This document shows, one piece after another, positions 15,242 to 18,750 of a DNA stretch of 45,596 nucleotides. This DNA comes from Dehalococcoidia bacterium (GTDB lineage: Bacteria > Chloroflexota > Dehalococcoidia > SHYB01 > SHYL01). The notes beneath the pieces were generated by a model. That model did no database searches. It saw only the letters and a program-made list of their open reading frames with translations, and was not told the DNA's origin. How positions within the stretch are numbered: the stretch's first letter is position 1; every line of letters begins with the position of its first letter. The stretch lies in contig SHYL01000005.1 of NCBI GenBank assembly GCA_009692825.1, positions 1-45,596 of the forward strand, given 5' to 3'. Both the position numbers and the translations under genes were made by a program.

Positions 15242-15469
15242 CTTAATAGCGCTTGAGTTCTAACGAGACCGTAAAAGAAATTATAACAAACGTAGGCTTG
15301 CTTTACGTATGCTGAAGCCTAGTTCTTATAACGGCTACCGAGTGCCTTTATCCTTTATAACGTTAAGGTCCCTACTTATTTAATCATTAGTAATTACAGA
15401 TTTATTTGTTCCTTCGGATTTCTTGAAAAACTACTACAATATTGATAACCAAAAGCAACGGAGGAAAAC

Positions 15470-16267
15470 TTGAACAGTAAAACCTTAGTTGAAACCGCAA
15501 GCGAATACCTTCAGGAGCACAAGACAAAGAAGGGCGAGGCTACCTCAGCCCAGGAGTTGAACCGTTTTGTGCGGTGGTATGGCGGTAATAACCGTGCGGC
15601 CGCGCTTACACCGTTGGATATAGAAAAGTATGTTGAGTACTCCTCACGGTCCACGGGTGACCTGTCAGCAAAAATGGCGCCTGTTAAGAATTTCCTGAAC
15701 CATCTTCACGAGTCAGGAATGACTCAGCAAAAATTAGCCGTTCATCTTAAGTACAAGCGCAGCGGTAGCAAGTCATCAGGCCCGCGCAAGGGTGCTAAGG
15801 GTGTTAACTACTTGACCAAGGAAGGTCATGAGAAACTTAAGGCTGAGCATGAAGAGCTTGTTAAGCAGCGCATCGACGTAGCGGACGACCTTAAGAAAGC
15901 TATGGCTGATAAAGACTTCAGAGAGAACGCCCCCTTAGATGCTGCTCGTGACAGGCAGGCGCACCTTGAGGCTCGCATCCGTGAGCTGGAAGTGATATTG
16001 AAAAGGGCAGAAGTAATGACCGACAACGGGAAAAATGCCACAGGTCGTGTCAGGCTTGGAAGCCGCGTATCTATAAAGGACCTTAGCGATAATGAAACGG
16101 TAGCCTATACATTGGTAAGCTCCTCTGAGGCTAACCTGCGTGAATCAAGGATTTCGGTAGATTCTCCGATAGGGAGCGCTATATATGACAAGCGCGCAGG
16201 TGAGCATATAGAAGTAAAAGCACCGGCTGGGATTCAGCGCTACGTAATTGAAAAGGTACAACCTTAG
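15470..16267 (+). CDS. greA: Recombinase-like SAM (core-binding) domain fused to GreA transcript cleavage factor
   Basis: TTG start after GGAGG; aa ~1-95 resemble tyrosine recombinase N-terminal domain (EYLQEHK...LTPLDIEKYVEYSS...APVKNFLNHLHESGM); aa ~105-265 GreA coiled-coil (DKDFRENAPLDAARDRQ) plus C-terminal domain (RVRLGSRVSIKDL...ISVDSPIGSAI). Confidence 0.85.
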   Translation: MNSKTLVETASEYLQEHKTKKGEATSAQELNRFVRWYGGNNRAAALTPLDIEKYVEYSSRSTGDLSAKMAPVKNFLNHLHESGMTQQKLAVHLKYKRSGSKSSGPRKGAKGVNYLTKEGHEKLKAEHEELVKQRIDVADDLKKAMADKDFRENAPLDAARDRQAHLEARIRELEVILKRAEVMTDNGKNATGRVRLGSRVSIKDLSDNETVAYTLVSSSEANLRESRISVDSPIGSAIYDKRAGEHIEVKAPAGIQRYVIEKVQP

Positions 16268-17763: not shown

Positions 17764-18750
17764 CTATTTGGCAGTGAATGTGCCGCTTTTGCCGCCCGAC
17801 TTACGTGCCAGATGGATTTCTCCGACAATCATTCGCCGATCGATCGCCTTACACATATCGTAAACCGTAAGCGCTGCGACAGAAACAGCCGTAAGCGCTT
17901 CCATCTCTACGCCCGTTTTATCCGTTGTGCGTACCGTTGAGGAAATATTGAGGGATGGGGGAGATTCTGCAAAATCGATTTCCACACTTATGTGAGTGAT
18001 TGCAAGCGGGTGGCACATCGGGATTAGTTCTGCTGTTTTCTTAGCAGCCATAATGCCAGCTATGCGTGCAACGGTAATAACGTCCCCCTTTTCTATCCTG
18101 CCGCCTCTTATAGCGTCAAGGGTCGTCTTTTCCATAGTTATGCGTCCTCTGGCGGTGGCTTCGCGCATAGTGGACTGCTTTTCGGAAACGTCGACCATTT
18201 GCGCCTTCCCCTGCTCGTCGATATGGGAAAGCTTGTGGGATTGGTTGCTGTTTCCTACAGGTGTCATGTAATTCACATTTCTAGTCAGGGAGTGTTGGGA
18301 TGCTCCGGGCAATGTAAAGCTGGTTTGGATTGCGGAATCTTCCTGTGATGAATTTACCTTGGAATAGGCTGCAGCCTGGGAGACTGCAACGCTATCTGCT
18401 TCCTCGTTTAACACATGTCCATTATGCCCGCGTATCCATTCCCAGCTTATGTTCCTATCGGCAACTACAGAATCCAGTTTTTTCCAGAGGTCTTTGTTTG
18501 CCTGGCGTTTCCAACCTTTAGTCATTGTGTTAACCAGGTATTGGCTGTCAGTATGAACCTGTACCGGAGCACCAGGCTGGACAACCTCGAGCCCCTTAAT
18601 AGCTGCCGTTACTTCCATGCGATTGTTCGTGGTTGACCTTTCACCACCCTGTAACACAGTTTTCCCGCCGTCCTCTGTATGTAGGATTGCAGCCCAACCC
18701 CCTGGCCCTGGGTTGCCCTGACAAGCTCCGTCTGTGTAAATGTGAATCAT
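17764..18750 (-). CDS. RNase HI - MoaC (cyclic pyranopterin monophosphate synthase) fusion protein
   Basis: One uninterrupted 328-aa ORF: N-term MIHIYTDGACQGNPGPGGWAAIL, TTNNRMEVTAAI, HTDSQYL, NEEADSVA; C-term LSHIDEQGKAQMVDVSEK, ELIPMCHPLAITH, TDKTGVEMEALTAVSVAALTVYDMCKAIDR. Confidence 0.93.
   Translation of the reverse strand: MIHIYTDGACQGNPGPGGWAAILHTEDGGKTVLQGGERSTTNNRMEVTAAIKGLEVVQPGAPVQVHTDSQYLVNTMTKGWKRQANKDLWKKLDSVVADRNISWEWIRGHNGHVLNEEADSVAVSQAAAYSKVNSSQEDSAIQTSFTLPGASQHSLTRNVNYMTPVGNSNQSHKLSHIDEQGKAQMVDVSEKQSTMREATARGRITMEKTTLDAIRGGRIEKGDVITVARIAGIMAAKKTAELIPMCHPLAITHISVEIDFAESPPSLNISSTVRTTDKTGVEMEALTAVSVAALTVYDMCKAIDRRMIVGEIHLARKSGGKSGTFTAK

Follow-up and report, generated by a model that had tools for sequence, protein, structure and literature searches.

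GreA is usually viewed as a uniform two-domain factor. In E. coli GreA, the coiled-coil tip residues D41 and E44 are required for the activation of transcript cleavage (PMC7527559). GreA sequences are also found as the C-terminal part of larger proteins, as represented by the NCBIfam models PRK06330 ("transcript cleavage factor/unknown domain fusion") and PRK14720 (a GreA model of 906 positions). The protein described here likewise has GreA at its C-terminus, but it matches both models via its GreA part only; the N-terminal parts of the modelled proteins, which are much longer, are unmatched by our protein, and their lineages are different, presumably the chlamydiae and the spirochaetes. In the TPR-GreA/B-C-PIN conflict proteins, the GreA C-domain also serves as an RNA polymerase docking module within a multidomain protein; the sections of the source consulted describe no GreA coiled coil in these proteins, and give them other partner domains and a predicted immune role (PMC8195603). 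The GreA fusion reported here is a new, clade-wide variant of GreA.

The window analysed is a stretch of 45,596 nucleotides from a Dehalococcoidia bacterium. The fused greA gene lies at 15470–16267 on the forward strand and encodes a protein of 265 amino acids in one continuous frame without internal stops, from a TTG start to a TAG stop, as judged from the reading frame and from dN/dS in close relatives. TTG is the sole possible start codon within the open frame. A GGAGG Shine-Dalgarno-like sequence is present at 15460–15464 (+); the first-pass annotation had recognised this motif but placed it six nucleotides from the start, whereas the spacing is five. Promoter and terminator scans around the gene returned chance-level matches only. 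Divergent rsmG-like or ftsH genes recur in the neighbourhood of the fusion, and no conserved gene neighbourhood or partner gene was found beside it in relatives. A second unusual fusion is located nearby at 17764–18750 (−), where a 328-aa ORF joins RNase HI (residues 3–126, PF00075, E 1.5e-32) to MoaC (residues 185–320, PF01967, E 1.5e-58).

The GreA part of the protein is complete, as had been proposed from the sequence. Pfam identifies GreA_GreB_N (PF03449) at residues 113–182 (E 5e-19) and GreA_GreB (PF01272) at residues 191–264 (E 2.3e-21), and the best sequence match of this part in the PDB is E. coli GreA (E 4.8e-17). The N-terminal coiled coil (residues 113–186; 15806–16027, +; delimited by Pfam and AlphaFold) carries the tip sequence DKDFREN and is followed by an FKBP-like, RNA polymerase-docking C-terminal domain (residues 191–264; 16040–16261, +), the same order as in GreA. 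Foldseek matched the GreA part to E. coli GreA (1grj) and to RNA polymerase-bound Gfh1. The codons for D149–E152, equivalent to E. coli D41–E44, occupy 15914–15925 (+), and the catalytic acids D149 and E152 are invariant in all 76 fusions examined, in keeping with the earlier suggestion that the tip acids are retained. The protein therefore resembles E. coli GreA in its coiled coil, its FKBP-like domain and its tip acids, with 30–34% identity in structure matches. It differs in an N-terminal extension of 110 residues that holds a recombinase-type domain, and in the surroundings of the tip, which read DKDxRENAPL rather than GDLKENAEY. Against the NCBIfam GreA models it falls narrowly under the cut-off (143.5 versus 145 bits).

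The N-terminal domain (residues 1–98; 15470–15763, +) is firmly assigned, by sequence profiles and structural models, as a four-helix core-binding (SAM-like) domain of the tyrosine-recombinase type. A single-sequence Pfam search with these residues gave a weak match to Phage_int_SAM_4 (E 0.08), which is below the cut-off, and the XerC/XerD-type domain proposed in the first-pass annotation therefore needed stronger evidence. A profile built from 52 fused relatives found the integrase N-terminal domain 3nrw as the best of 177,635 PDB sequences (E 6.9e-5). When the 52 members were scanned singly, the most frequently matched families were XerD (22 of 52) and XerC (19 of 52), and the Pfam families most often matched were Phage_int_SAM_4 and Phage_int_SAM_1. 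Aligned by hhalign with the core-binding domains of Xer proteins from the same class, the N-domain profile scored 96.5% (E 7e-10). AlphaFold predicts the whole fused protein with a pLDDT of 89, and the N-domain alone with a pLDDT of 86.6 and a pTM of 0.78, as four helices at residues 6–16, 24–37, 48–59 and 65–81. In Foldseek this model matches 3nrw with a TM-score of 0.82, followed by 2kd1, Tn1549 integrase, XerD, Cre and lambda Int, and the top 35 matches are almost exclusively tyrosine recombinases or integrases. The agreement of the profile search, Foldseek and hhalign rules out a chance match and bears out the proposed domain. A decayed XerC or XerD gene is also ruled out, as this genome carries two separate xer genes.

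Core-binding domains normally form a C-clamp on DNA jointly with the catalytic domain. The N-domain has the same four-helix fold as 3nrw, 2kd1 and XerD (1a0p), but here the catalytic domain with its R-H-R-Y residues is absent and GreA follows directly, as had been noted at first reading. Phage_integrase appears neither among the matches listed for the window protein nor among the 25 families listed for the 52 members. The two parts are joined by a basic linker (residues 99–112; 15764–15805, +), within which residues 99–109 are predicted to be disordered (pLDDT below 50).

The fusion occurs throughout the class. Among 245 Dehalococcoidia genomes of at least 90% completeness, about 230 carry it, counted as matches at E 1e-58 or better; the best GreA-only match reached 1e-47, and the matches at fusion-level score, among those listed, start at model positions 1–8. 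The remaining class genomes comprise 10 with GreA-like scores only, 4 without any GreA match at E ≤ 1e-8 (G056, G267, G298 and G345) and 1 unclear case. Elsewhere in the phylum, the fusion was found in 21 of 133 sampled genomes from other classes. The survey covered the source's own phylum well; in one search of genome contigs, of a kind suited to close relatives, other phyla yielded GreA parts only, and in 52 SAR324-phylum genomes none of the matches listed extended into the N-domain. One genome, G027, carries two different fused GreA genes, L005 on contig C78 and L054 on contig C97, which match the window protein at E 4.2e-64 and 5.6e-50.

A maximum-likelihood tree of the GreA part, calculated from 76 fusions and 42 stand-alone proteins, contains one branch that divides the two groups. 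This branch has support of 97/73, was recovered in 99% of bootstrap trees and appeared in 0 of 500 shuffles, a split that fits a single origin and mostly vertical descent of the fusion. In the closest pairs, dN/dS is 0.01–0.08 for the N-domain and 0.06–0.14 for the GreA part. By this measure purifying selection on the N-domain is strong, and the domain is therefore translated and kept. An assembly chimera is ruled out by the recurrence of the architecture in dozens of independent genomes. No match with the N-domain was found among plasmids, phages and viral contigs, which gives no sign of an origin from a phage or plasmid bearing a similar fusion. On these comparisons, Dehalococcoidia and some related classes of the phylum share a GreA variant that is both old and fixed. 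The first-pass annotation had raised the possibility of a well-documented, common GreA architecture; the architecture is indeed common within one clade, but a literature search, thin on subscription journals, found no description of it.

The source genome has a single fusion and, on another contig, a second, stand-alone GreA that lay outside the view of the first-pass annotation. This copy (L004, G000:C1:18739-19176) has the tip GGSLNNAEY, with no acids. It is typical of its class: among 90 stand-alone GreAs from class genomes counted as fusion-bearing, none has the D/E tip pair. Acids are present at both sites in 4, at one site in 13 and at neither in 73, with typical tips such as GGTANNAEY or similar to SSTVNNAEY. 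Stand-alone GreA keeps both acids in all 11 phylum genomes examined that lack the fusion, and at least one copy keeps both in the two class families that are apparently truly fusion-free (f8, genomes G010 and G264; f104, genomes G272 and G283). One of these fusion-free genomes contains a tandem of two stand-alone greA genes that overlap (L043, G010:C8:7092-8028) and a third copy elsewhere (L044). Most stand-alone tips in the other fusion-bearing classes of the phylum read D/D, which indicates that the loss of acids is specific to Dehalococcoidia. Tip decay probably followed the fusion, therefore, and was completed in this class. The stand-alone greA adjoins lysS in 25 of 31 loci checked, and the fusion in 0 of 6. 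In three Dehalococcoides genomes (G017, G052 and G102), the first two assigned to the genus by their 26–27 reductive dehalogenase (rdhA) genes, the fusion is the only GreA found.

Judged by tip residues, no Gre factor other than the fusion is likely to be cleavage-competent in fusion-bearing class genomes. The simplest reading of the sequences is that transcript cleavage passed to the fusion; the old greA could then degenerate, turn into a channel binder that does not cleave, or disappear. The expected counterpart of such a stand-alone copy is the Thermus anti-Gre factor Gfh1 (2eul, 2f23), a non-cleaving GreA paralogue, although we do not claim that the copies described here belong to that family. 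The tip of Gfh1 is acid-rich, whereas most of the stand-alone copies have lost their tip acids.

The N-domain has a median net charge of +4 and a median pI of 9.5 across the fused family, and the linker a median net charge of +5. Lysine or arginine is present at position 73 in 52 of 52 sequences, at position 94 in 98%, and at positions 68, 96 and 97 in most. The charge of the N-domain equals that of DNA-binding Xer domains, with no enrichment over them. This basic character fits non-specific contact with DNA or with another ligand, and together with the fold it suggests that the domain may bind DNA. The GreA coiled coil, when bound to RNA polymerase, has its N-terminus outside the secondary channel, and a linker of 15–20 residues could thus let the extra domain reach nearby DNA.

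The chief competing explanation is that the N-domain is a protein-protein module, serving in dimerisation or in docking to RNA polymerase or to a repair or nucleoid protein, and has lost DNA binding. We regard this as possible but doubtful. Because core-binding domains can contact proteins as well, a protein ligand is conceivable, and the most strongly conserved residues of the N-domain (F33, W36, G38, F75, L89, N88 and H92) are mainly in the core or are non-basic surface residues. The missing SxNT loop and the lack of conservation at base-reading positions point in the same direction. Against a protein module stand the basic residues and basic linker, which are kept over many families, and the lack of a conserved partner gene beside the fusion.

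The first-pass annotation had instead proposed that the domain targets GreA to particular DNA sites. Such a domain would read sequences or structures, such as pause sites, recombination sites or Holliday junctions, and the fold of recombinase DNA-binding domains and the presence of xer genes in the same genomes are in its favour. The idea is nevertheless improbable, and finds no support in the contact residues. The N-domain positions aligned with the base-reading residues of Cre/Xer (67, 70, 71 and 74, and the start of helix 2) are variable or acidic across the fusion family. In the hhalign alignment the N-domain also lacks the SxNT loop found ahead of helix 2 in Xer proteins, and the catalytic partner of the usual C-clamp is absent. 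Non-specific DNA holding is therefore favoured over site targeting on the sequence evidence, with a protein ligand as its main rival.

The existing annotation of Dehalococcoides bears on whether the N-domain is used at all. A proteome study of strain CBDB1 found GreA (cbdbA743) to be strongly acetylated at K17 in stationary phase (PMC7918482). In two Dehalococcoides relatives (L034 and L035), this numbering fits a count from an internal Met at the start of GreA, and the residue corresponds to K132 of the long form. Since the numbering fits this Met, the public CBDB1 gene model may truncate the fused gene and omit the N-domain. Across the family, a Shine-Dalgarno signal precedes a possible internal start in 6 of 29 cases, compared with a background of 18%, which gives no sign that a short GreA is made from such a start. 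That the recombinase piece is a neutral remnant, in cells that use the GreA part only, is very improbable: the internal Met and the K17 numbering would suit a short form, but neither relative has a ribosome-binding signal at that Met, there is no family-wide enrichment, and the N-domain is retained across the class under purifying selection as strong as that on GreA.

We thus favour non-specific DNA holding as part of a wider account, to which we give a probability of roughly 0.6, in which the fusion is the main or only cleaving Gre factor, the stand-alone copy is non-cleaving and the N-domain is a DNA tether. This account builds on features established by sequence comparison, namely the fusion and its fold, its mostly vertical spread, the selection on the N-domain, the intact fusion tips and the tip decay of the stand-alone copies. 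A core-binding domain without its catalytic domain is joined to the front of GreA by a flexible basic linker, and the GreA part would enter the secondary channel of RNA polymerase and, like ordinary GreA, stimulate cleavage of backtracked RNA. Any stand-alone copy in the cell would bind the channel without activating cleavage. In the least certain step, the N-domain would hold DNA near the elongation complex, probably without strong sequence preference. Such holding would lengthen the stay of GreA at a backtracked polymerase, or alternatively couple rescue with nucleoid proteins or with replication and repair conflicts.

More tentatively, transcript cleavage may have moved across the whole class to a DNA-tethered GreA, with the old greA, usually beside lysS, remaining as a tip-dead competitor for the channel. 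If so, these cells would contain an inbuilt rescue factor together with its antagonist, and only polymerase that the extra domain keeps on DNA would be rescued. Dehalococcoidia, the class to which the dechlorinating Dehalococcoides belongs, probably rely on a fused GreA with a putative DNA-handling module, and their textbook copy lacks the catalytic residues. Annotation by best hit would name the decayed copy GreA and overlook the swap. The arrangement makes it testable how a DNA-tied Gre factor affects the site and speed of rescue of backtracked polymerase, and what role a tip-dead GreA plays in a cell.
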